A stretch of 64,000 nt of DNA, from contig JAHLKD010000098.1 of assembly GCA_025526935.1 (NCBI GenBank), forward strand, positions 144,773 to 208,772, written 5' to 3'. Below, in pieces: positions 9,881-61,700 of this stretch. Position 1 is the stretch's first letter; every line of letters begins with the position of its first letter. Position numbers and translations under genes: made by a program. The notes beneath the pieces are model-generated. The model was not told the DNA's origin, did no database searches, and saw only the letters and a list, made by a program, of their open reading frames with translations. This DNA is from Cladochytrium replicatum (Eukaryota > Chytridiomycota > Chytridiomycetes > Cladochytriales > Cladochytriaceae).

Positions 9881-10191
9881 AATCATCTGCCTCGCTATCA
9901 TCCTCCATTAAACGAATTGAGTTGTAGGTGGTTTCGAATACAATCGGCTCCTGAGCATGATCAAGAGTGGTGATAACGATAATGTCACTTTGTGAAAGAA
10001 TATCGTAAAATTCATTCATGATAACCTGGTCGCTCTCATCTTCAAGGACATTGATGATGAAATCGTCGTCTATCCTCTTCCTGGTGACCAACCTGTGATT
10101 GCACAGGTGACGGCGGCGACGGACGAAACGGACGTGATACCAGACATTATTAATGCAGGGGAGGTGGGGGAAGCTGCTGAGCTTGTGACTG

Positions 10192-12105
10192 ATGACGAGC
10201 ATGGCATTCAAATTGCTTCTGGGGTTATTACCCCTCCGCCTCGCCACAGTCCCCCTTTCAGACTTTCCCACCCCTCGTGCCCCTGATCATGACAATCTCG
10301 ATGGTTTCCTAACACCGGTACCTGTCACACCAGAACCGGCGCTTGAGCCTCGCCCACAAGGCTCACTAACCACGCCGACGCCTCGCCGAACTGAACGCAC
10401 CCGCAAACCCACAGAGCGATTAATCGCTGATCCAACCTTTGGACGTCAAGGACCTCCAAAGCAAGCAACCAAATCCGTCCTTGTTACGCTTGCCAAACAT
10501 CTTCTCGCCCGCGATATCCCGCTCCCAGGATCTTACAACGAAGCGAAACGTTCGCAGTACGCTACAGAATGGGACGCAGCCATGCACTCCGAAATGCTTG
10601 CGCACAGGGATAATGGAACTTGGGAGCTCGAGGCCCCACCCCCCAACTCAAAGTTAATTGGAACGAAGTGGGTGTTTCGAGTCAAGGAGAATCCTGACGG
10701 GACAGTCGCGAAGTTTAAAGCTCGCTTGGTTGCTCAAGGCTACACTCAACGGGGAGGTGTGGATTTTGATTGGAACGGACTGTACGCCCCTGTCGTTCGG
10801 CATTCGTCGCTCCGCATCATTTTTGCCATTGCAGCGGCCCTTAACCTTCAACGACACCAGCTCGATGTCATCACAGCTTATCTAAATGGCATCATCAAGG
10901 AAGTCATTTATTTGCGCCAACCTCCCGGCTTTGAAGTACTTGGCCGACCTGACCTTGCGTGCAGAGTCCGCAAAGCACTTTATGGTCTCAAACAATCAGG
11001 CAAAGAATGGAACTCCGTGATCCACCGCATCCTCACCCAGCTTGGGTACACGCGGCTTTCGTCTGACTCTTGCGTTTACGTGAAACGACGAGGCAACGAC
11101 CTCACCATCATTACTATTTATGTCGACGATTTCGGCATTTTCAGTAACTCGACCTTGGAGGTGTCGTGGTTAAAAGAGCACTTATCAAAGTCGCTCTCCA
11201 TCTCTGATCTCGGTGAACTGCGGTTCATTCTCGGTTGGCAGGTGGCCCAGGGGAAGGATGGATCATTGATGGTCCACCAAGAGCAGTTCGCTACTCACGT
11301 CCTGAAACAACTACTTTTCAGCAACTCTACCCCAGTTTCAACTCCATCATCAACCACGAACCAACTTACCAAAATTATGGAAGGCGAAGTTACGGAATGG
11401 TGGGAAAACATAAGCTATCGCACGGCGATAGGCTCGATCATGTACCTCAGTATCGGAACTCGACCTGACCCGGCCTACTCGCTCAACACGGTTGCGCGCT
11501 ATCAAGCTTCTCCTTATCTAGGCCACTGGAGTGCGGTCAAAAGGATCCTACGATATCTGAAAGGTACAACCAACGTCGGTCTGACTTTTCGAAAGTCAGC
11601 CAACAACTCGCTGCACCTCGAGTGCTACTCCGACGCCGATTTCGCAAATGACGTTGACGATCGCAAGTCTGTAACTGGTTATGTCTTCCTCATCAACGGC
11701 ACGGCCGTCGCATGGAAATCAAACAAGCAGTCAACCGTAGCAACATCAACAGTCAACGCCGAATACGTTGCGCTTTCTTCTGCCGCAACTGAAGTCAAAT
11801 GGATCCGTTCCTTTCTCGGCGAGCTCGGCTTCCAACAAAGCGGGCCTACGGTCATTCATTGCGACAACAACGGAGCAACCTCGCTGTCGTTTGGCGAACA
11901 GAAACACTCGTTAGCCAAGCACATCGACATTCGCTTTCACTTTCTTCGTGAACTCACCGCAACGCGCCAAATTGTGGTGGAACGGGTTCCTACGGCAGAG
12001 AACATCGCGGACGCCCTCACGAAAGCAGTTCCAAGACCAAAGTTCAGTTTCTGTCGACACGGCATGGGCTTGAGTTCACTTACCAGCAAACCTGAATTGA
12101 AATGA
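10192..12105 (+). CDS. Copia-type reverse transcriptase-RNase H polyprotein (partial)
   Basis: One open frame of 637 codons covers the end of the integrase-RT linker, the full Copia RT and RNase H. Visible RT motifs are KWVFRVKENPDG, KARLVAQGY, the polymerase site YVDD at 11119-11130, and LYGLKQSGKEW. RNase H shows SDADFAND, TVNAEYVAL and the terminal KHIDIRFHFLRE block with ALTKAVPR. No stop or frameshift interrupts RT or RNase H, which is notable for a truncated copy. The first ~30 codons lie in a different frame from the preceding segment. The element cannot move by itself because integrase and gag are absent here. Confidence 0.93.
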   Translation: MTSMAFKLLLGLLPLRLATVPLSDFPTPRAPDHDNLDGFLTPVPVTPEPALEPRPQGSLTTPTPRRTERTRKPTERLIADPTFGRQGPPKQATKSVLVTLAKHLLARDIPLPGSYNEAKRSQYATEWDAAMHSEMLAHRDNGTWELEAPPPNSKLIGTKWVFRVKENPDGTVAKFKARLVAQGYTQRGGVDFDWNGLYAPVVRHSSLRIIFAIAAALNLQRHQLDVITAYLNGIIKEVIYLRQPPGFEVLGRPDLACRVRKALYGLKQSGKEWNSVIHRILTQLGYTRLSSDSCVYVKRRGNDLTIITIYVDDFGIFSNSTLEVSWLKEHLSKSLSISDLGELRFILGWQVAQGKDGSLMVHQEQFATHVLKQLLFSNSTPVSTPSSTTNQLTKIMEGEVTEWWENISYRTAIGSIMYLSIGTRPDPAYSLNTVARYQASPYLGHWSAVKRILRYLKGTTNVGLTFRKSANNSLHLECYSDADFANDVDDRKSVTGYVFLINGTAVAWKSNKQSTVATSTVNAEYVALSSAATEVKWIRSFLGELGFQQSGPTVIHCDNNGATSLSFGEQKHSLAKHIDIRFHFLRELTATRQIVVERVPTAENIADALTKAVPRPKFSFCRHGMGLSSLTSKPELK

Positions 12106-42779: not shown

Positions 42780-43270
42780 AACAGTGATTAATCAGCTTCC
42801 ATCTCAAACCCCAAATGATCAGGAATTCGCTGTCTCCACTAAAAAGCAAGTACTCTTTAGCTCATCCCCATTCTCACCTTTGTAACGGATCTTTGTAAAC
42901 TGCAGGCGACTGCATTGATGAAGGAGCCGTGTTCGCTCGAGATGTCTGTGCAGAAGTAAACCCACTCCTCGCCCTTTGTCCACAAGATTTGCCGATGTAA
43001 CAGTCATCATTAGCTGCGATCGATAAATGGCAATACATCAGAATTTATCCAATAGTACCACAACATCCACTCACGTCGGATCAGCGTCTCCACAATCGCG
43101 TACCGTGTCGGTGTCTTTAGTCGGATGTCTAAGTGCCCCCGCCTGTATCCAAACCTGAAACTCGGCTAACTATAAAGCTGGCAGAGAACCTCGTCAAGCA
43201 CCTATTTCTTAGTCAAAATTCGCTACCTGAAGAACCTCCTCAGGTGCTTTTGCATTCCAAAACGCATCGC
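42780..43270 (-). CDS. short multi-exon minus-strand gene, unresolved
   Basis: Minus-strand blocks look coding: FWNAKAPEEVLQ, then VWIQAGALRHPTKDTD, then a segment around 42960-42890 (GEEWVYFCTDISSEHG in one frame) and a short final exon RIPDHLGFEMEAD before a TAA near 42790. Good donors and acceptors exist (GTGAGTGG, GTGAGAATG...CTTTTTAG), but I could not find one frame through all blocks. It could be a small gene with an unseen microexon, or a pseudogene. It overlaps the promoter of the next gene on the plus strand. Confidence 0.35.
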
Positions 43271-43283
43271 CCAATACACCACA

Positions 43284-45230
43284 ATGCCCTCAGTTAACGC
43301 AGACCTACCCGCCTACGCCCCGCCGCGACCCAATCCACCTCCGTCTACTGCTAATGCATCAAATCCAACTACCCAGAACGCTTCCGTTCGTCTTGACAGT
43401 TTCGGCCTTGAAGCAGAGTTCAAGAAAATGGGCGAAGATGGCCCTTTCTACACCAACGTGCGGGTCATCCCGCCCTTCCAAGGCCCACGCAAACCAGCCC
43501 TGATCGTCTGCGCGATCGACGTCTCGTACTCAATGAACGACGCCGTGTTTCTGGACGGTCAGTCCACGGGTCTCTCCATTCTGGATCTGGTCAAACACTC
43601 TGTGAACACCATCATCGAAATGCTAGGGCCCGAGGACAAGATCGCCTTTGTACCTTTCACGAACGCGGTGGTCGACGAGATGTCTCCGATGCTGATGACA
43701 CCGGAAGGCAAAGACGAAGTGCGCGCAAGGCTGGCGGCGCTGAGGCCGCTGGAGAGCACAAATATTGGAGACGCACTGATAAAATCAGTGCAATTCGCTT
43801 CCAGCGAACCCGCGTACGAGAACGTTGCGATATTGCTTCTGTCGGACGGTGTATCAAACGCCGGCCCATCTGTGGAGTTTGAACTCGAGAAAATCGCTGT
43901 CAAACGGCAGGAGAGGCAGTTCAAGGGCATCATCCACTCCTTTGCGTACGGCTACTCCACCGACACAAAGCTGATGCGCCAGATCGGCGAGACCGGCAAG
44001 GGAATCTTTGCGTTCATCTCGGACGCCTCGATGGCCGGCAACGTCATCATCCACGCCGTCTCCTCCGTCCTCTCTTTCGCGCTCCAACCCGTCCTCAAGC
44101 TCGAAGCCGCCGGCGGATGGAGCTCCGTGGTTGACATGGGCGAGCTCATGTACGGCCAAACGCGAACCCACGCGCTCTCCATCCCGCGCAACAACCCACT
44201 CAAAGCGACCCTGACAACTTTCGATGGCCAAGTCATCAAATCCGTCGAATTCATCGAGACTGCTGGAGACGATGAATTCTGGTTCCACCACGCGCGCTAC
44301 CTTACCATCAAAGAGCTCGACGTCATCGCGGCACGTCTGGAACGCCAGGAAAAGCTCAAGGCCCTCATCGCAACCCTCGAAGCTCTCCCGGCCGAGCACG
44401 AGCAGCTCGAAGCGCTCGTGAACGATCTTGCCGGCGAGGTGATACTTGGGTTGCAGGACGGCGAGACCTGGAGCAAGTGGGGTGAGCGGTACTTGCTCTC
44501 GTTCCGGCGGTCGCACGAGCTGCAAGTGTGCTCGAATTTCAAGGACAAGAGTCTGAAACCGTACGGCGGGCCGATGTTCCAGGATTTTAGGAACAAGGGC
44601 ACCGAGCTGTTCAAGAACCTCCCACCGCCGATACCGTCGCTGCTGAATGCGCCGGCGTATAGCAGCAGCAGCAGCAATGGGACTACGCGGTACGTGGCGG
44701 CGCCGACGGTGCAGATGGGCCAGCTGTACGATGAGTATGGGCCGTGTTATGAAGGCGAGGGGACGGTGTCAATGGCGGACGGCAAGACGAAGCGGGTCAA
44801 GGATCTCGTGAAGGGCGATGTGCTCGCGCACGGCGCGGTGGTCGAATGCGTCGTGTACACTCCCCTCAAGGTCCCCGTGGACATTGTCATGCTCAACGGA
44901 GTCAAAGTGAGCCCGTACCATCCTGCCAAAAACCCCGCGGAGACCCAATGGAGCTTCCCGATCACCATTGCCGGCACGAAAGCCAAAATGTCTCTGGACG
45001 CGTTCTATAACCTCGTTGTGAAAGATGCGGAGCACAAGGTGACGATCAACGGGTACGATTTTGCGACTCTGGGACATGGACGGATGGACGACGAGGTTTT
45101 GAGGCACGGGTATTTGGGGACCGGGAGGGTGATTGAGGATCTGAAGAGGATAAAGGGGTGGAAGGAGGGGCGTGTTGTTGTTGAGAGGGTGGTGAGGGAT
45201 TCGGAGGGGTTGATTGTGCAGATGAAGTGA
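43284..45230 (+). CDS. vWA domain protein with C-terminal Hint domain
   Basis: One intronless frame of 648 aa. After a Pro-rich N-terminus, the von Willebrand A domain spans residues about 72-250, with an intact metal-ion (MIDAS) motif D79-V-S-Y-S83 and later TNIGDAL and LLLSDGVSNAG. A helical, Leu/Glu-rich middle region follows. From C488 the C-terminus is Hint-like (intein/hedgehog fold): CYEGEGTVSMADGKTKRVKDL, VVECVVYTP, VKVSPYHPAK, TLGHG and the final RVVRDSEGLIVQM. In Hint proteins the first Cys attacks its own preceding peptide bond. Whether this one processes itself is inferred. It is the only intronless long gene here. It precedes the TIR-VIT-vWA gene by 540 bp on the same strand. Confidence 0.92.
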   Translation: MPSVNADLPAYAPPRPNPPPSTANASNPTTQNASVRLDSFGLEAEFKKMGEDGPFYTNVRVIPPFQGPRKPALIVCAIDVSYSMNDAVFLDGQSTGLSILDLVKHSVNTIIEMLGPEDKIAFVPFTNAVVDEMSPMLMTPEGKDEVRARLAALRPLESTNIGDALIKSVQFASSEPAYENVAILLLSDGVSNAGPSVEFELEKIAVKRQERQFKGIIHSFAYGYSTDTKLMRQIGETGKGIFAFISDASMAGNVIIHAVSSVLSFALQPVLKLEAAGGWSSVVDMGELMYGQTRTHALSIPRNNPLKATLTTFDGQVIKSVEFIETAGDDEFWFHHARYLTIKELDVIAARLERQEKLKALIATLEALPAEHEQLEALVNDLAGEVILGLQDGETWSKWGERYLLSFRRSHELQVCSNFKDKSLKPYGGPMFQDFRNKGTELFKNLPPPIPSLLNAPAYSSSSSNGTTRYVAAPTVQMGQLYDEYGPCYEGEGTVSMADGKTKRVKDLVKGDVLAHGAVVECVVYTPLKVPVDIVMLNGVKVSPYHPAKNPAETQWSFPITIAGTKAKMSLDAFYNLVVKDAEHKVTINGYDFATLGHGRMDDEVLRHGYLGTGRVIEDLKRIKGWKEGRVVVERVVRDSEGLIVQMK

Positions 45231-45773
45231 GAGGGCGTGGTCATTTGGGGTTGAGTTTGACGCAAAGGAGATATGTTCATGGATACTTTGGCAAGTGGAG
45301 GATTCAGCGACACTTTTAGATTTACTGTTAATCCAACGAAGGAGATCAGCTTTGTACATACATTCTGTACCAAATACACACATGAGAAAACTTGTCATGA
45401 TTGTCGGGACACCCACCTGCAACCACCACCTCACACCGTCCTCCCACTCCCCACATTCAACTTTGGCTCCGAAACAATCAGCCTCGAATATATGCGCTCC
45501 TATCCAGCATGCTCAGCGCGCCGCACTTGCAGTCCTCGCAGTTCACCCGAATTAAACGCAAAATAACCCATTGGGCTAACAAACAAACCCCTTCACCGAT
45601 TCAATTTCACCGCCTGCATTGCAATTTACAAACATCTACAGAAACCGTTGCTTGGATTCTCGGTTCTCCTCCTTCGATGGTGGCAATGAGTGGCACACAG
45701 ATCTTGGACCCTTGGACCCTGGGAATCCAAGGGCTCAACACCACCGACCATCAGACGGCTCACCTGTGCAGAC
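45231..45773. other. intergenic between the vWA-Hint and TIR-VIT-vWA genes
   Basis: Short frames only. Open reading on the plus strand just before 45774 is interrupted by a TGA in the TIR frame, which supports the start at 45774. Confidence 0.5.
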
Positions 45774-48700
45774 ATGGTGGCCAAAGTCTCGATTGCACCA
45801 GGATTCGAACAACATGTGAGGTTTCTCCTCATCTTCGCACAAATTCTCCTTACGCTATCTATTTTGGACAGTTTTTCATTTCGTACTCTTGGGCAGGTGC
45901 CGGAAAGGAATTAGCCCGTAGACTTGAGCAGAATTTACGGCACGATGGCTATACTGTGTGGGTTGACGTGACCAGAATGTCTGGCAACATCAATGATGCC
46001 ATGGCCGAAGGGATCAATACTTCGATGGTCTTTATTCCAATCATGGATATCCACTACGGAAAGTCGGCAAATTGTAAAAAGGAGCTTAATTACGCTTCAG
46101 ATATTCGAAAGGTGGGGATGTGACGTTGACAACTGAGGCTACCTGGTTAACACTCGATGCTAAAGGCGATCGTTCCGATCCGCTTGACAAACCAACTCCC
46201 GGAGGGCGAAAAGTTTATAATTGCGGGCCTGCTACGTGTGTTTGTTATCTGCTCAAGAATCATATTCGCCTTTAATCATTGTAATCCAGATTTTGAGCTG
46301 GACTCCCGATTATGGCGGCCAAGGTACCTCAAATTACTCAAAGAACTCGAGAAAGTACTAATCGGTATGTCATATTCTCTCCTTGAATGCTCATAATTCA
46401 TCTTGATCTTTCTTGCAGATGTCGAAACTGTTCCGTCACCGCGCGTTGCTCTCTCAATCAATGGAACTCAAGAGAGGGATATTTCCGCTACCAAGTCAAC
46501 ACCCCGGGGCGTCATCGCTAGTGCCGTTCCAAAAGTAGCCCAAGGGAGAACTCTTGCTCCCATAAAGCCAAAGTCGCGAGGTGTCAGCGTTGGCGGTACT
46601 TCTTCCCGAAGCCTGCTACCTGAAGCAGCTCAAAAGAGCAACCCTACGTTAACTAAGACCGCCTCGGACGCGAGTGTTGCTCGACAGTTAGAGAGCGAAC
46701 TCATCCAGAAACTGGAACAAAGAGGAATTGACTTTATCTTCAGTAAGCAATTTGCAGTAATCAACTGATGCTTTACTTATAATTTTTTCCCCCCGGAAGA
46801 ACCGGTCTTCATACCCATTTCTGACATCTCTTGCAAAGCGAGAGTTGTCAGCTTGGTGTCCATCGTCAATCTTCAACACACCTTTCACAACACAACTGAA
46901 CAAACGCTCACCGAATGTGTTTATCTGTTCACCGTTCCAGAGAACGCAAATGCCTCAGTTTGTGGATTTTATGCAGAGGTCGCTGGGAGAGTATTGAAGG
47001 TAACAAACATCTCAACATTCGGACATAATTATCTCACAATATTTACTTGATTAAACAGGGTGTTGTAAAAGAGAAGGGGGAAGCTCAGCGGGAGTATACC
47101 AATGCACGAGACAAAGGAACCGTGTCTGCGCTTATGGGAACAGATGTAAAGCCCGGACAGTTTCGGGTATCAATTGGAAACCTTCCCGGTGATGCAGCGG
47201 CTACGATGCATATTACGTTTATCATGGAAGTTTCATCGTCATCAGAGAATATCCGGATTGTATTTCCGACCCAGCGACCCACTGCTTTGGAGTTGGAGTC
47301 GACTCCAGCTGCTGTCGGAACCGAAACAAAGTTACAAGTTGAGGTTGGCGTCGAGCTATTGTCAGGCACGATCAGAGCATTATCGTCCCCTTCGCATCGC
47401 AATGTGTTTGTGGAGATCGGCAAGACGGTCAAACTCTCACACGCGCTTGCGGACGCTGGCGCTTCGGCGTTTGGAGAAACAACAGTCAGCTGTGCCCGCG
47501 CGACCTATTCTGGGCGGCCATCCGAAGATCCTTTGGAGATTTGCGTGGCGGTAGACCCTGGATCTAAACCTGCGGGGGTCGTTGAGCTTGACGAAAACCA
47601 TGGAACGTCAGTAGGAATGCTTGCTTTGACTCTGGATCCACCTCCTCCCGACCGTTATCGGACTGAAGTGCTGGTCATGATTGATTGCGGATTATCCATG
47701 CGTGGCGAGCCGCTTCAAATAGCCGTGCAACTCGCTCTCCGTGCATTACAAAGTGCTTTTGCGGGACTTGTTCTGTGCTTTGGAGAGAAGGTCGATCGTT
47801 CTTCCTTGGAGAGCATCCAGTCTCCATTCGCAAGTGCTAAAAAGCATTTGGACAATATCGATGCAGTCTTGCAGCGATGTGGATCCAGTGAAAATAGAGA
47901 GCTTCTCCCCGCAATGCATGCCGTGTTGGGATCACGATTAAGCTACGTTAAAGACATGCGGACCGTCATTTTGGTGCTATCAGATGGAAAGGTATCTTTT
48001 ATTGTTTACTCACATCTATTGTGAGCTTGACAGCGTCGTAAAATTATTAGTTTTCGAATCTTGCCAATGTTGCCGCAACTATTCCGAGGCTGGTCGCCGG
48101 AGCAACGAATCAACATTTCACGGTCTGTGCGCTTGGTGTTGGTGAGGACGTTTCACGGCCAGCACTCGAACTGTTGGCCCAAGTGGGGAATGGGGTGTGC
48201 GATTTTGTGAAAAGATCCGATTTTGAGACTGACCGCGCCTGGGACACGCTCGCTAGCGTCGTTTCTGTACCATGGACTCGCGTGCAGGTGATCTGGCCTT
48301 TTGCTTCGCAACATACGATCGGAATGATCCCGACCGCCCGCTTGGGATGTCTTGCGTTATCTTCAATGCAAGAGAAATCAACAATGGGGGAGTGTGCTGC
48401 AACATCCGCGGTGCTGACACTGGGAACAGAGGCCAAGGTTCGCATACCACTAAAACCTCTCATAGACACTTTCGCACACACTATTGCTGCACAAAAAAGA
48501 ATTCGCGAGTTGGAGTCGCTACGAAAAGACGCTGGTCGTCATGACAAAATGTATGCCCAGGAAATCGCCCGGCTCGGAATTGCCTACCAGCTTGCTAGCT
48601 CTCAAACATTGTTTGTCGCGATATGGGATGGGACTGACAGTTCAGTCACGCAACCTGACTACAATGTCGAACTCAATGCAATCGAATCGAAACACATGGC

Positions 48701-48818
48701 CTACGTGCGCCCTGCCTCCTCTGGCGGCTACGGCGGTGGACGCCGTGGCGGACTTGATGGTTTCGGCGGCCGACGACGCCGTGGTGGCTACGGTGGTGGC
48801 TACCGTAGCAACAGGTGA
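45774..48818 (+). CDS. TIR-VIT-vWA fusion protein with RGG-type tail
   Basis: Eight exons (45774-45815, 45872-46111, 46166-46235, 46290-46364, 46419-46742, 46800-46999, 47059-47991, 48051-48818) give 883 aa. Residues 15-130 are a TIR domain: FFISYSWAGAGKELARRLEQ, GYTVWVD and SANCKKELNYA, where E85 sits at the catalytic glutamate position of NAD-cleaving TIRs. A Ser/Lys/Pro linker leads to a VIT domain (about 250-390: VNLQHTFHNTTEQTLTECVY, KEKGEAQREYTNARDKG). The vWA domain (about 520-700) has a weakened MIDAS, DCGLS instead of DxSxS. The C-terminus is Gly/Arg-rich (GYGGGRRGG). VIT-vWA is as in PARP4/ITIH proteins. The start (MVAKVSIAPG) is chosen because the frame is closed upstream. Confidence 0.85.
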
Positions 48819-48907
48819 GTTTGTAAATGAGCGGATTCAGAAACTTTCTCAACAAGATTACCGGCGAGGACAGTCTCAGCAAGAAGCTAGCACCTCTCCA
48901 ACCGCAA

Positions 48908-49553
48908 ATGTCGTCCAGTCCCGCTTACACTCCACTGGAGCCCTCGGGTGGATCATCCTCGGTGCAAAATGTTTGGAAAGAAAGATTGTGTAGAACTCGT
49001 ACTAATAATTTAGTTTTTTAAGGTCCAAACTCAACTGGATGAGGGTACTTCATAAAAAGATCCACTTTACTTGAACAGTGTCTCGCTCATCGTTCACAGT
49101 TACCAGCATCGTCCAAGACAACGTCAGCAAGCTCCTCGCCCGTGGCGGCAAACTCTCGAACAAATCCGGGCTCGCGGCCAGCTCGGAGAAGTTCAAACGC
49201 ACCGCAAATAAAGTCCGATCCAAAATGTAATGCCAAGAGAACGCACAACGTCGATATTTGCAGAGTTTGACAAAGTTTGGGGCGTTTTTTTCCTTAGGTG
49301 GTGGCAGAACATGAAGATGAATGCTATTCTTGCCGGCGTGATCGGGATATTGCTTCTCGCCTTGGTTTTGGCAATTCTGTTCCAGACCGGTGTGTTGAGA
49401 ACCGGGGGGTCGACTGCCGCACCAGCGACGTCATCGGCGTCTTCGTCGGGTGGGAGCGCCGTTGGGATCACGACGACACCATCCGGCTCGTCAGTTGTCT
49501 TGGGTGGGGTTTACAAACACCTCGGGGCTGGACGAGGGAAGTTTTCGGTATGA
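48908..49553 (+). CDS. R-SNARE (synaptobrevin/VAMP type)
   Basis: Exon 1 starts at MSSSPAYTPLE; the start is chosen because the decayed copy begins likewise (MSQAYTPLE). Its donor is uncertain (about 48950-48972). A SNARE exon ends at 49228 and the last exon runs from about 49300 to 49553. The SNARE motif is VQDNVSKLLARGGKLSNKSG, with the central zero-layer Arg in LLARGGK. The splice join creates SKM-WWQNMKM, the juxtamembrane signature of synaptobrevins, followed by a TM of about 22 residues. R-SNAREs drive fusion of secretory vesicles. Unlike usual family members, about 60 Ser/Gly/Thr-rich residues follow the TM on the luminal or extracellular side. Confidence 0.8.
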
Positions 49554-49938
49554 TCTGCCAACGATTTCAGGCACAAAGCCATTTACAGGAGCGGCATGAT
49601 TATGTTTTTATTCGCACACTTTCACTTATTGCTCCTTAGCGTTGAAATTGTTGTTCCCGCCCGCACGATGATGATGGCAACCTTTGATCCACTTTGATTC
49701 ATACGTACATCCCAATACAAATCCGTGAACCAGTCAGTCCCTGTTTCGCCCTCGTTCAGAAGATAAATTTTTGGCATTTTGGCAGGAGTTGTGGCCAGCA
49801 GAATGGGTTCGTCAGGGGAGGCTATGGAAACGAATCAGAGTCGCCGCTCTATCTTGGCCACCGATGCCCAGAACAATATATTTACCACAAAGCAAAGCAA
49901 AGCAACTGAGAGAAAACCCACAGCCACGATCATACTCC

Positions 49939-50569
49939 ATGTCCCAGGCGTACACTCCTCTGGAGCAGGCGACAGAGTCGACACCGTCCTCGATCCTGAA
50001 TGTGAGGCACGATATCGAGCTGAATCATTCATTATAAGCTGATCTCCAACTCATAGTTCGAAAAGCAGGTCGCTGAGGGTCTCTTTCAGTTCATCACCCA
50101 TCCTGCTGCTTGCTTTCTCAGTTGTTCTATTAGAGGCTAAGATTATCAAAGACAACATGGAAAATTCTATAGTCATGAAGATGAGCTGAAGGACATTTCA
50201 GAGCAATCGGAGAAACTCTCCGTGAATTCTGAAAGGTCAAGTAGTAAAAAGCCAGCGACTTCAAGTCCAACCTGTAAGTACAAATTTTGCAAGTTTGTTA
50301 AACTTTGCGTTGACATGATGTGTTAAAAGTTGGTGGCAGAATGTCAAGATGAAGTTATCCTTGCGGCAGCAATCGAACTCCCACTGCTAGCCTTGCTCCT
50401 GGTTGTTCTGTTCCAAACCGGTGTGATGAATACCGGCGGATCGACTTCAGCGCCAGATACATCAACCGGATCACTTGCGGATGCGAGTGCTGTTGGGATC
50501 AGAGTGAGTGGATTGGGAACATCGGAGTTGTTGCCCTTCGTCGAGAATAACCGGGGGGATGGAGAATAG
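49939..50569 (+). pseudogene. decayed tandem copy of the R-SNARE gene
   Basis: Same order as the intact copy: MSQAYTPLEQATES, a SNARE block (IIKDNMEN, then after a frame change SHEDELKDISEQSEKL), and TGGTGGCAGAATGTCAAGATG (WWQNVKM) followed by a TM-coding segment and TGGSTSAPDTS. The zero-layer Arg position reads His. A one-base shift lies in the SNARE block near 50163. A base is missing right after the WWQNVKM codons, so SNARE and TM cannot be read in one frame. The gene is non-functional as an R-SNARE unless edited. Confidence 0.8.
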
Positions 50570-50908
50570 CGGCATGATCCCAGTGCAGGTGTGTGGTGCG
50601 CAAACGCATCGATTGAGCAAACGTCCCGTCGTAGCGGGATTAGCATTGATTTTCGGTTGCACCCCCAAACTTTGCACTTTTTTTGCTTTAATTTTTCAAA
50701 CTCTTGTCATTTTCTCAAACTGTTGGGGACCGCTTACCATCATCCTCTACCTACGTCTGCAGCCGACATTTTTGTATGTATAATTTCTTTCGTTTATCCC
50801 CTTTTGGTGGCTTCGAAACCCCAACGGCCACCATAAACGAGCCCAATCTTCTCACGCCTGAATCACATAAATCACAGAGATCCTCGCATTTGGAGAGCAT
50901 TCACGGCG
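50570..50908. other. intergenic, promoter region of malic enzyme
   Basis: T-rich sequence without a supported gene. Confidence 0.5.
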
Positions 50909-53070
50909 ATGAGGACCACACCCCCCACCACAGCTGCAAACAACAGTGCGACGACCCTCGTTGATCGAAGCACAACCAAACAGTCCATCACTAACGGGAT
51001 CGCCATCGTTCGGTCGCAGTTCGTCAACCAAGGTTCGGAAAGAGAGATTATCTTGACACCTCTAGCTTAATGTCAGCAGGAACGTCTTTCTCTTCATCGG
51101 TGCGCACCAGGCTGCGTCTGGACGGTGTCCTTCCGTCGGCCATCGAAAAGCTTGAAGATCAAGCGTCACGCTCGATCGCTTTCATGCGGACTCTGGAGAC
51201 CGCGCTTCAGAAATACATGTACCTCAATCGGATCAAGAATGAGAACACGACGCTGTTCTATAAATTGATCATGGACCATATGAGCGTGAGTTTGCAATCT
51301 ACATGTCCAACTTTTCGAAACTCCAACGGTGTCAATTGCAGGAGCTATGCCCGATTATATACACGCCGACCATTGGAGAGGTCTGCATCAAGTTTTCGGC
51401 TATTATCACCCCCGGATTCAACGAGGGTTTGTTCTTACCGGTTTCGGATAAACACCGTGTTACAGACATTCTTGGGAACTGGCCGTACCCATCTCCGGAC
51501 ATTTGCGTCATCACCGATGGCTCGAGAATTCTTGGGCTTGGAGATCTTGGTGTGAACGGGATGGGTATTCCCATCGGGAAACTCTCATTGTAGGCACCAA
51601 ATTCCGAACGAAAAGTCTTCTAATGAATCTACCCAGGTATGTGGCCGCCGCTGGCTTCCAGCCTCACAGGACCCTACCAATTACCCTGGACTTCGGCACA
51701 AACACCGAGAAATATCTTGACCCAGCACTTGAGCCGCACTATATCGGCTCGCGTCAGAAACGCCCCGCGGATCCCGAGTTCTTCGAGTACATGGACATTG
51801 TCATGAAGGCGCTCGTGGAAAGATGGCCCAAGCTTTTGATTCAATTCGAAGACTTTTCGTCCGAGCATGCCTTCGAGACACTGGCTCGGTACCGGAACGA
51901 CTACTTCTGCTTCAACGACGACATTCAGGTAATATCAAACCTCCCCCGGGTATTTCTTAGGCGAATCATTTTTTTGTTGCAAAGGGTACCGGCGCGGTCA
52001 TCCTCGCGGGCTTCATCAATGCAGTTCGTCTCTCCGGGATCCCGCTCCAGAACCACCGCATCCTGTTTTCTGGTGCAGGAAGCGCAGGTGTGGGTGTCGC
52101 CCAGCAGCTGTGCGAGTACTTTATCCGCGACGGAAGGATGTCCGAAGTGGAAGCCAAATCTCTGTTCTGGCTCCTCGATTCAAAGGGTCTGATCACCATC
52201 GACCGGGCCGACGCCGTCCCCTCCGATCCCGCAGACGCACCGGGATCGGCACTTCCCGCACACAAGCGCTTCTTTGTGCGCCACGATAACGACGGTCAGC
52301 AGTTCAAAACGCTCGCAGAGTGCGTGGAGTATGTGAAGCCGACGGCACTGATTGGGTTGAGCGCGATCGGGAAGAGCTTTGACGAGGGGATTTTGAAGAG
52401 GATGGGGGAGTTGAACGAGCGTCCGCTAATATTCCCCTTGTCGAACCCGAGCGCGGTGAGTATTGCAATTTACTGAGCTGCGGTTCTCACTGAGTCAACA
52501 CTGGTGTTTCTCGAGAACGCGGAGTGCACGTTCGAGGAAGCTATGACGCATACTGAAGGACGAGTCCTCTTTGCTTCGGGAACCGCGTTCCCGCCTTATC
52601 AGATCCCCGGAACCGACGCCTTCGTACAACCAGGTCAAGGAAACAACATGGTACGTCTCGCCATCCCTCCTATTTCCCTTCCGTCCTCACAATTCTCTTT
52701 GGGACAGTATATCTTCCCAGGTCTCGGACTCGGCTCCGTCCTCGCCTGCGCCAAAACCGTCACCGACACAATGGTCTACCAAGCCGCCGTGACGCTCGCG
52801 CACTCCCTGACCCCTCACGAGCGAGATGAGCTTGGATCGCTGTACCCGGGACTTCAACGCATTCGCGAGATTTCGGCAAAGATCGCCGCCGACGTGATCC
52901 GAGTTGCAGTGAGAGAAGGAAACGCGACTGATAAGGTTGCGATTTCGATGGTGGAGGGCGATAAGGAGGGGGGCGAGGCGTTGGAGACGTTTGTGAAGGC
53001 GAAGATGTGGGAGCCAAAGTATCCTATGGACGAGAGTCTGCTGCGTGCGGGATTGAGGGCGTTGGTATGA
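50909..53070 (+). CDS. malic enzyme (oxidative decarboxylation of malate)
   Basis: Seven exons (50909-51032, 51080-51285, 51342-51589, 51637-51928, 51985-52455, 52516-52650, 52708-53070) give 612 aa. It converts L-malate and NAD(P)+ to pyruvate, CO2 and NAD(P)H. Signature blocks: NQGTSFS at the N-terminal join, YTPTIGE (catalytic Tyr), GIPIGKLSLYVAAAG (catalytic Lys), LIQFEDFS and CFNDDIQGT (metal ligands Glu-Asp and Asp), GAGSAGVG (dinucleotide fold) and SNPSANAECT. The N-terminus (about 30 residues, Thr/Ser/Arg-rich) could be a short mitochondrial signal. Cofactor preference cannot be read with confidence. Length is typical of the fungal enzyme. Confidence 0.95.
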
Positions 53071-58713: not shown

Positions 58714-61700
58714 AAGTACGAGACATAAGGTGCAAAAAGATGCAATGAGGCACGAGCTTTCTCTAAGCGATGATCAATAGTTGCAGCAAGATCAAACCCT
58801 GCAATAGTAAAATAGTGACCAAGGTATCTAAATGAAACCTCGACAGGGAGGGCAGAGCCATGAAGCTTCAAGGGGGTGGGTAACCGCTGAGAAGATAACA
58901 CAGCACACTTTGAAGGTGAAAACACAAAATGAGAAGCTAAAGCAAAATCTTCACAAATTTTCAATGCACGTTGGGCTTGCTCAGGGGCAGGGGTGACAGA
59001 AAACAAAGCTATGTCATCAGTAAAAAACAACGAATTGAAAACAGGAGTGTTATAAGAAAACCTAGCAAGATGAGAGGATTCACGACGAAGGAGCTGTGCT
59101 AAAGGATTGATGAAAACTGAGTACAAGAACCGAGACAAAACAGAACCTTGAAAAAGACCTCGTGGAAGCGAAAACAAATCAGAAGCACGATTCTCTATAA
59201 CAACCTGAGAAGAACAACAATCAAACATACTCATCAAAACAGAGATCAAACGGTTTGGAATTCTGGGAAATTGACGAAGACGTTCCCACAAAAGAGGCCT
59301 ATGCACAGTATCATACGCTGCTTTAATATCTAAGAAAGTAACACAATAAGGCAGAGCAGTGCGGGAAGCCCGTCGCAGGGTAGCATCTAATGCAAAAACA
59401 CACTCAACACCTGAACGATTGGCCTAGAAACCAGCTTGGGCCGGATCAAGTTTACCAACATAAGCTACAAGCATAGGAAGCAGGGTACGCTCAATCATTT
59501 TCCATCAATATTGGTTAAAGTAATGGGGTGGTACTGACTAATATCACCAATGGAACCCTTATTCTTCCAAACAGGTAACAACAAGCCAGCATTCCAGGCA
59601 GAGGGCGACAAACCTGAACGGAAAATAGCGTTTGAAAGTTGAACAAAAAGGATAGCAACATCAGAAGCTAACGGCTTAAATAACTCAGCTGGAATATGGT
59701 TTGGGCCAGGAGCAGAGTTATTTGGGGAATAACGAATAGCACAAACAAAGTCACTAATACTAACTGACACAGAATCATTCAGCGCATGTAGACAAACGTG
59801 TTCTGCACTGGCAGAGGATTGTGCAAACTGGGTCTGATAAACGGAGGCAAAGTGATTGCGATAATGAGATAAAGAGGCAGGATCAGACAATAAACCGCTT
59901 GAAGCTGAGCGCCGTTGATGACACCTACGCGCAGTGGAAAGAACTTTGCTAACCTCGGTTAAAGAACTAGGAGAAGAACTAAACATATTGTCGCCAGAAG
60001 CCTCTCGAGCTCGCTGAGAAAGAGACCAAGTACAAAAAGCTTTGACACGCTCACGCGATAGCCGGTCATGCTCCAAGTGGCAATACTCAACTAAAACAGG
60101 ATCAGGATCATCACAGGAAGAAACAGCTAAAAAGTGCTTATGAGCAAGTAAGTAGCTCCGTCGCAAGGCCACTAAATGCGGCGGCACAAATGGCAGGGCA
60201 GGGCGACAGCGAACTAAACTGGGGGGTCCAATGACACAAGCAGCACACGAAGTAACAAAGGACAAAATAATATCTAATGCAGAGTCAATACATCCCTGTG
60301 CAACATCCACAGACATTTGGGCAAAGGCGGGAGCTTCTAAAATTGGACTGAGCGCATCATTGACATCAGCAAGGGTGGGATCAAAAAACAAATGTCCCAC
60401 ATCCTCCATTGCTTGAAAGACAGCAGGTTCACGCAACAGATGAGCAGCCCAGCGCTTGTGGGGGGGTGCAGCAGAGGGAGCGCTGGCATTGGGAGGAGCA
60501 AAAGAAAAAACAGCTGTAACCGGAAAATGGTCAGAAGCCCAAGGCATAAACTCGCTGTCGGCTAGACGACTATGAACTATATAAGAAATAGGATCACATT
60601 GAAGCAGAGGATTGACAAACAACAAATCGATCATGGAGTCACCATTGTGAGAAGAAAATGTGGGGTTATGACAGGAAGGGTGCTTAACTAGAGAGAAACT
60701 AGCGGCAGAAATAAATTGCTCAAACAACCTACCCCTACGATTTGAAGAATGATCACCAGTAGCTAAAAAACGGGCATTGAAATCGCCCAACAAAAGAACA
60801 GGGCACAGAGACGACGGGACATGTTGAGGAAGTGAAGCAATAAACTCTTCAAGGAAGGGGTCCTGAGCAATACCACACGGAGGCAAATAATACCCTCCAA
60901 CGAAAAGCCCACGAAATGTAAACCATAGAGAGGTGCCACCAGAACTAGAAACGAGACGGGAATCAGAAGCTCTACAAAGACTGCGATTGATCAAGACTCC
61001 CACACCAGCCCGTCGTGTACCCGATGACCCAGGAGAAAAACGAGTGTCAAAAATCAAATCTGGGGAAGGCAGAGGGTCTGAAGGAAAAGTGTGTGGTTCA
61101 GTCAGGAGCAGAAAAACAATGTGATTTGTGCACATAAAACGAAACAGTGAATCAAGAACTCCAAAGCTCAAATTTCAACAATTGAAGGTACCAACTCGAA
61201 CACTAATCATTAACGAAGATGGGTTGAGCGAGGCTGACGCGCAATCCCGTGGGCACTGTCCAGCACAGTTTCCTGAGCATCCATGGGGAGCTGACCACGG
61301 ACATACAGGAAAATAGCAGGATCAGTAACTGAACTGAGGATATGTGCATATCTCTTGTGGACAACTTCCCTGACCGCAGCCTCCCGCTGCTCCAAAGGCA
61401 GAGTAGAGGCTCGGCGAAGAAAGTCAGGGTTTGATTTGTCAGTGGAAGCTTCCTGGGTGGAAAAGTGCGCACGGAGAGCAATTGCGGTTGAGCGAATACA
61501 GATAAAGGAAGCAATGTTGCGACCAACAGAACTGATGTGGCGGATACCACACACCACCTCATCACCCAAGAGAGCCCTCAGCATGGTCCGCACAAAGCCG
61601 AGCCGCTATCTCATGATGTCCTTGATGTACACAGTGGTCAAATCATCCACACGGGCCTGAAGATCAGCAGGTGGGGAGACCAGCAGCGGAGAGGTCGGAG

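Follow-up and report, generated by a model that had tools for sequence, protein, structure and literature searches.

Different host-derived tails on TIR-VIT-vWA genes of the chytrid Cladochytrium replicatum: a possible integrated-decoy arrangement without an NLR core

Integrated decoys are known from NLRs, and in fungi several candidates for guarded or duplicated host proteins have been put forward. In excerpts of the papers concerned, nine C-terminal kinase domains of Sordariales NLRs, likely derived from CHK-2, are presented as good decoy candidates (PMC12258605), SEC-9, a SNARE, is proposed to be watched by the fungal NLR PLP-1 (PMC12881547), TIR domains are mentioned in chytrid NLRs (PMC9815663), and bacterial TIR-vWA fusions are described, with the TIR placed on the vWA component of vWA-MoxR conflict systems (PMC7159879). 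The present study concerns a gene of the chytrid Cladochytrium replicatum (GenBank assembly GCA_025526935.1) in which a TIR domain is joined to a VIT and a vWA domain, located within a 64,000-nucleotide stretch of contig JAHLKD010000098.1 (positions 144,773 to 208,772, forward strand; hereafter the window). Coordinates without a contig label are positions in the window, and C6, C44, C102, and similar labels denote contigs of the same genome, which was searched over 50.5 Mb in 198 contigs. We found that the copies of this gene with an intact TIR-VIT-vWA head run at the DNA level into different duplicated host genes; as judged from the alignments, the chimerism of head and host tails is well supported, and the function is inferred.

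Besides the window copy, two other full heads were found, both on the minus strand (C44, ~355.1 kb; C102, ~116.3 kb), in a paralogue search that used an 826-residue query and scored 55 of 88 candidates, such that further weak copies could be missed. The DNA identity of the window to these copies stops at 48686 (C44) and 48671 (C102), right past the FVAIWDGTD residues with which the module ends, and beyond the VIT-vWA part each intact-head copy enters a different duplicated host gene in frame. At all three head-tail junctions the tail is read in the frame that it has in its gene of origin (chance 1/27), and stand-alone relatives of the tails exist elsewhere in the genome (a chitin synthase on C102, Hsp70-like genes on C25 and C77, an RRM gene on C6, and a SNARE on C85). 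A host duplicate within the polypeptide together with a stand-alone copy, the combination by which an integrated decoy is recognized, was found in the DNA for C102 and C44; in the window it was found for an in-frame RGG segment and includes a SNARE only if a retained donor is spliced. The chimeras are young enough (the tails are 74-99% identical in DNA to their stand-alone relatives) for the joining events to be reconstructed base by base.

In the C102 copy, the open frame of exon 8 leads directly into a chitin synthase sequence (Chitin_synth_1, E 5e-62; Chitin_synth_1N, E 1.6e-8, above its cut-off), which is stop-free over the 534 codons modelled, the 3′ end of the gene not being included in the model. 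The fused chitin synthase (C102:110.7-113.5 kb) lies ~14 kb away from the stand-alone gene (C102:125-129.5 kb), which extends further at its N-terminus, and the two are 98.65% identical over 2736 bp with a sole gap of 9 nt. Thirteen substitutions separate them in the first 243 bp (5%) and 15 beyond (~0.6%); the modelled codons carry 4 synonymous and 10 non-synonymous changes, with just one, a synonymous change, past codon 90. This distribution suggests gene conversion or strong constraint past the first part and free change next to the junction.

In the C44 copy, a short segment separates the head from two in-frame partial duplicates of the beginning of an Hsp70-like gene; the second of these continues into the gene, lacking its ATG. 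The DNA of this tail is 91% identical to the Hsp70-like gene on C25 and 82% to that on C77, and its gaps relative to C25 measure 9, 2, 13, 2, 1, 1, 2, and 1 nt, of which the 2 and 13 together restore the frame and the last five were placed in introns by eye. The Hsp70 call is weak (PF00012, E 0.056, below cut-off; PDB, E 0.28), and the label "HSPA12-like" is a tentative one based on motifs. The intermediate segment may be an old tail of the head, since it is partly present in a decayed copy on C7.

The window copy ends differently again. The initial annotation had listed a Gly/Arg-rich tail, which is present, though not as a conserved part of the protein: it occurs only in the window copy among the three with intact heads, and a 146-base DNA query matched C6:191609-191729 (91% over 121 bp) and C47 (89% over 106 bp). 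The C6 frame encodes an RRM_1 domain (E 3.2e-9) followed by an RGG tail that is read as in the window, and a low-complexity extension was therefore rejected in favour of a captured exon. Similarity between C6 and the window extends into the splice donor, where C6 reads CAACAG(CGGCGG)GTAAGTTTAGG and the window reads CAACAGGTGAGTTTGTAA, that is, CAACAG-GTGAGTTTGTAA in the window. The exons and frame proposed initially for a gene spanning 45774-48818 were borne out, its end at 48818 was not: the apparent stop (TGA, 48816-48818) overlaps the retained donor of the captured exon, so the gene likely continues, and by this comparison the stop probably lies within an intron. The features of the locus are as follows.

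45556-45773, plus strand: 5′ flank in common with the C44 copy (DNA alignment), promoter or 5′ untranslated side of the duplicated unit
45774-45815, plus strand: exon 1 (MVAKVSIAPGFEQH), supported by frame, GT-AG, and an identical join in two paralogues
45872-46111, plus strand: exon 2, the larger part of the TIR domain (TIR_2, Pfam), with the putative catalytic Glu85 at 46082-46084 in a CKKEL motif kept in two paralogues
46166-46235, plus strand: exon 3, TIR (frame, paralogue introns, Pfam)
46290-46364, plus strand: exon 4, last part of the TIR region (frame, paralogue introns, Pfam)
46419-46742, plus strand: exon 5, linker, in frame and near neutral (dN/dS, the ratio of non-synonymous to synonymous substitution, 0.68-0.92)
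46800-46999, plus strand: exon 6, first half of VIT (Pfam)
47059-47991, plus strand: exon 7, rest of VIT, middle region, and first half of vWA, with DCGLS at 47683-47697 (Pfam, motif position)
48051-48814 (48818 with the stop), plus strand: exon 8, which completes vWA and the C-terminal side of the VIT-vWA module (to ~48686) and goes on into the captured tail
48694-48814, plus strand: captured RGG-tail exon of a gene for an RRM/glycine-rich RNA-binding protein, source frame kept (91% DNA identity)
48815-48820, plus strand: GTGAGT, matching the donor of the source exon in the C6 comparison, with the TGA inside
48825-48882, plus strand: 58 bp duplicated from the beginning of the Hsp70-like gene (MSGFRNF.NKITGEDSL), 94.8% and 89.7% identical in DNA to the gene on C25 and C77
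48919-48970, plus strand: SNARE exon a, continuing the frame of exon 8 provided that 48815-48918 is removed; acceptors at 48873 and 48879 are also in frame
49023-49044, plus strand: SNARE exon b
49100-49226, plus strand: SNARE exon c, in which four residues are deleted relative to the stand-alone C85 copy
49298-49553, plus strand: SNARE exon d, encoding the transmembrane anchor and the C-terminal tail

With the acceptor at 48918, the product is probably a TIR-VIT-vWA-RGG-SNARE protein of ~1,034 aa, as predicted from the exon frames. The spliced window SNARE matched Synaptobrevin (E 1.4e-21) and is an R-SNARE with 74% DNA identity to C85; the deletion falls inside the SNARE motif, where it should shift the heptads. 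The region 48856-48969 has nine AG acceptors, of which three (48873, 48879, and 48918) open into the SNARE; this equals the chance expectation, so support for the SNARE fusion comes from the retained donor and the two sister chimeras and not from frame. The 58-bp Hsp70-like leader would be wholly or partly intronic if the donor at 48815 is used, and would otherwise provide a start for the SNARE frame. The latter case, in which the SNARE is a separate neighbouring gene with its own start, draws on the ATG at 48827, which opens a frame through the leader and the SNARE, and is the less likely one because the stop overlaps the retained donor. Further stretches resembling the C85 SNARE locus were seen at 49642-49728, 50328-50454, and 50851-51000, among them another, partial SNARE copy farther downstream.

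The head itself was modelled as eight exons on the plus strand (45774-48818), which join into 883 codons plus a stop with no internal stop and are separated by seven introns of 54-59 nt, all GT-AG; the initial count of eight in-frame exon joins thus holds for the frame, the joins themselves numbering seven. All three domains named in the initial annotation scored above their Pfam cut-offs in the 883-aa product: TIR_2 (PF13676) at residues 15-120 (64.4 bits vs. a cut-off of 28, E 1.8e-17), VIT (PF08487) at residues 258-371 (84.8 bits vs. 26.5, E 6e-24), and VWA_3 (PF13768) at residues 520-679 (30.8 bits vs. 27, E 3.6e-7). The older TIR model PF01582 reached 16.6 bits, below its whole-protein cut-off of 21.3, and neither NB-ARC or NACHT nor a HET domain was present among Pfam matches to the product up to E 1. 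The VIT-vWA module looks complete because NCBIfam TIGR03788, whose members we take to be proteins with VIT and vWA, matches over residues 260-822, albeit far under its equivalog cut-off; residues 254-793 match PARP4 (E 8e-21).

That TIR and VIT-vWA belong to one gene is far better supported by the paralogues than by frame alone. All seven introns occupy the identical place and phase in the C44 and C102 full copies in a splice-aware alignment, in which extra introns called by the aligner beyond the end of homology were disregarded, and the head is stop-free in both, in keeping with the initial proposal of a single gene. The window is 90.9% identical in DNA to the C44 copy over 45556-48686, and the VIT-vWA exon blocks of both full copies share 87-92% of their residues with it. 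A further copy, on C44 (~347 kb), is truncated and lacks the TIR, its match reaching the start of exon 2, resuming in mid exon 5 (~713 bp deleted), and ending in exon 7; its 3′ end lies at ~346.4 kb. Two decayed copies were found, on C7 and C9. The C9 copy is 68-82% identical to the window over three stretches and retains pieces of TIR and VIT, including KNCKKEL, from which it follows that the architecture is older than the recent copies. The decayed C7 copy (C7:462400-464400) contains an inverted internal piece and a downstream frame with a hydrophobic, anchor-like stretch.

Selection on the head was estimated as Nei-Gojobori dN/dS for the pairs window-C44, window-C102, and C44-C102, in that order. 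The TIR is under purifying selection (0.19, 0.23, and 0.21; Fisher tests, p 1.7e-4, 5.4e-4, and 9.9e-5). The linker gave 0.87, 0.92, and 0.68 (Fisher p 0.74 in the single pair tested), the middle region 0.34, 0.39, and 0.54, the post-vWA part 0.49, 0.21, and 0.19, and the whole head 0.49, 0.38, and 0.34. Glu85, a putative catalytic residue by analogy, sits at the CxxE position within CKKEL, as first annotated, and this motif is present in all three intact-head copies.

The metal ion-dependent adhesion site (MIDAS) of the vWA domain, first reported as weakened, reads DCGLS in place of the usual DxSxS at residues 526-530, and the three intact-head copies have DCGLS, DCGLF, and DCGLS. A search for VIT found eight loci, of which four (C31, C25, C127, and C24) remain beyond the TIR-type copies; these all have DRSGS and much stronger VWA_3 matches (E 2e-23 to 6e-26), and TIR_2 was absent from the matches listed for the 6-7.5 kb around each. 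The metal site of the TIR-bearing group is therefore degenerate, with the fold retained by profile. The DxSxS motif is common, though not universal, in the VIT-vWA family.

Other features of the window and of the genome's TIR complement were observed in passing. Directly upstream of the TIR gene (43176-45230, plus strand) lies a gene whose vWA product also carries Vwaint and Vint (Hint, intein-like) domains, and retroelement reading frames occupy 10189-12102 (plus) and 59498-61174 (minus), with RVT_2 reverse-transcriptase and endonuclease-reverse-transcriptase. Genome-wide, 84 stretches matched TIR_2 at E ≤0.01. One reading frame each was taken from 15 of 20 TIR loci; that of locus L024 combines TIR and Sel1 repeats, and Sel1-repeat reading frames adjoin the TIR match at loci L023, L025, L026, and L027. 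Clusters of many partial TIR_2 matches on C61, C63, and C80, two of them in frames of 1349 and 2327 codons, are possibly a repeated family.

The explanation that we favour, with somewhat less than even confidence, is a non-NLR protein with TIR output and interchangeable host-derived tails that works in the manner of an integrated decoy. The window gene belongs to a small chimeric family whose members with an intact head share a constant part (promoter side, TIR, and VIT-vWA scaffold) and differ in the duplicated host gene attached to it in frame. The TIR would be an NAD+-consuming effector kept inactive on the VIT-vWA scaffold, and the tail would locate it at a cell-wall, secretion, or chaperone target and serve there as bait; disturbance of the tail would lead to TIR clustering, NAD+ cleavage, and a cell-death or stress response, the whole acting as an integrated-decoy receptor without an NLR core. 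The N-termini of chitin synthase, SNARE, and Hsp70-like proteins should lie in the cytosol, so the TIR head fits each tail and would be cytosolic each time. The initial annotation had cast the VIT-vWA module as the sensor, a role that we would reassign: the tail changes wholly from copy to copy while VIT-vWA stays similar, and on these comparisons the variable host-derived tail makes a stronger candidate for the sensor, and VIT-vWA for the scaffold.

Several observations weigh against this explanation. Recent duplication alone can yield functionless chimeras, the chance figure for the junctions is not overwhelming, and the intact-head copies number only three, all from a single genome. VIT reached a dN/dS of 0.77 in one of its three pairs (0.77, 0.14, and 0.13), and vWA shows only moderate constraint (0.51, 0.49, and 0.38). 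The step from RGG to SNARE in the window is in frame only with the donor splice, the frame otherwise stopping at 48818, and the TIR matches the solved TIRs of Cat1 and SARM1 only weakly in sequence (E 0.27-0.67).

Among the alternatives, purposeless exon shuffling, in which ectopic recombination or a gene-capturing element copies the promoter and head before duplicated genes and the head acts alone with the tails as passengers, seems to us somewhat unlikely. Gene-capturing transposons produce mosaics such as the window tail, which combines an RRM gene, an Hsp70-like leader, and a SNARE within ~230 bp, and shuffling is also in line with the two decayed copies and the truncated TIR-less copy, the deletion in the window SNARE motif, and the reverse-transcriptase reading frames inside the window. 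It sits less easily with the source frame preserved at every junction, with frame-restoring gaps in the coding tail of C44 (9 and 2+13 nt relative to C25, the others being assigned to introns by eye), and with a fused chitin synthase free of amino-acid change past codon 90 of its modelled part; nor were transposon ends noticed in the left flanks inspected, where no systematic search was made. The tails could instead be addresses, by which a TIR enzyme is fixed to chitosomes, to secretory vesicles, or else to an Hsp70-like partner and plays a local role in normal growth or development. Chitin synthase and R-SNARE are both membrane proteins of the secretory pathway, and the fused chitin synthase, being unchanged past that codon, may be active; developmental roles of VIT-vWA proteins in Dictyostelium, described in excerpts of PMC10539598, point the same way. 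We nevertheless think addresses improbable, as they leave the use of whole enzymes in place of short anchors, and the Hsp70-like tail, unexplained. The SNARE deletion is neutral between bait and address, as it should spoil zippering and not anchoring.

Two further readings concern the head. Were the TIR a non-enzymatic interaction domain and the protein a scaffold or adaptor, its weak similarity to solved NADase TIRs would be accounted for, yet the CxxE glutamate is kept in the three intact-head copies and one decayed copy, and CKKEL aligned over the CWDEL of the Cat1 TIR; we judge this reading decidedly improbable. The reading in which two separate genes, one for TIR and one for VIT-vWA, were joined in error has in its favour the nearly neutral exon 5 linker, but order, intron places and phases, and an open frame are common to two paralogues, and the older decayed copy keeps TIR and VIT remnants in matching order; it was rejected on the paralogue introns and could hold only by a slim chance. 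Returning to the decoy-like explanation, its boldest form, a fungal immune-receptor family without an NLR core, based on TIR and VIT-vWA, that renews its recognition by repeated in-frame capture of cell-wall, secretory, and chaperone proteins copied from the fungus itself as baits, once taking the donor's splice site, is in our estimation unlikely.

If the tails are decoys, the integrated-decoy strategy is not bound to the NLR core, and a duplicated host protein might be attached to another scaffold that restrains a TIR. One could then read from the fused tails which host proteins (chitin synthase, SNARE, Hsp70-like) are attacked by parasites of the fungus. No paper combining TIR with VIT or inter-alpha-trypsin, or TIR with chitin synthase and gene fusion, was found in the open-licence literature, and no TIR-VIT-vWA protein appeared among the wider literature matches listed (titles, opening lines, and passages), which agrees with the initial remark that the architecture was not known as a described fungal system; it may be present in other genomes or papers, and one data set (PMC6950771) contains vwa, tir, and vit once each as words.

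PARP4 couples VIT-vWA to an NAD+-using enzyme, and like other members of the VIT-vWA family (VWA5A/ITIH) it shares with the present gene the order of VIT then vWA; here the TIR replaces the PARP domain, is placed N-terminally, and accompanies a degenerate MIDAS. In SARM1, a TIR effector is held on a regulatory ARM-SAM scaffold; the part of the window protein that matches it (residues 15-88) takes in E85, and SARM1 differs in having neither VIT-vWA nor a captured tail. The vWA-MoxR systems, in excerpts of PMC7159879, likewise carry a TIR on a vWA protein as a predicted NAD+-based effector, but they are multi-gene systems in which a MoxR ATPase and a third component take part, and "VIT" is absent from the main text of that paper, whereas the gene here is eukaryotic, intron-bearing, and provided with host tails. 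PLP-1 and SEC-9 of filamentous fungi (PMC12881547) offer a cell-death protein proposed to survey a SNARE, there as a patatin NLR and a separate t-SNARE, here as an R-SNARE copy that adjoins or is fused with a TIR protein. The integrated-decoy NLRs of plants and fungi (PMC4246468; PMC12258605) are alike in uniting a death-type effector with a duplicated host protein as possible bait, and the chimeras described here differ from them in having no nucleotide-binding domain or repeats and VIT-vWA as their core.

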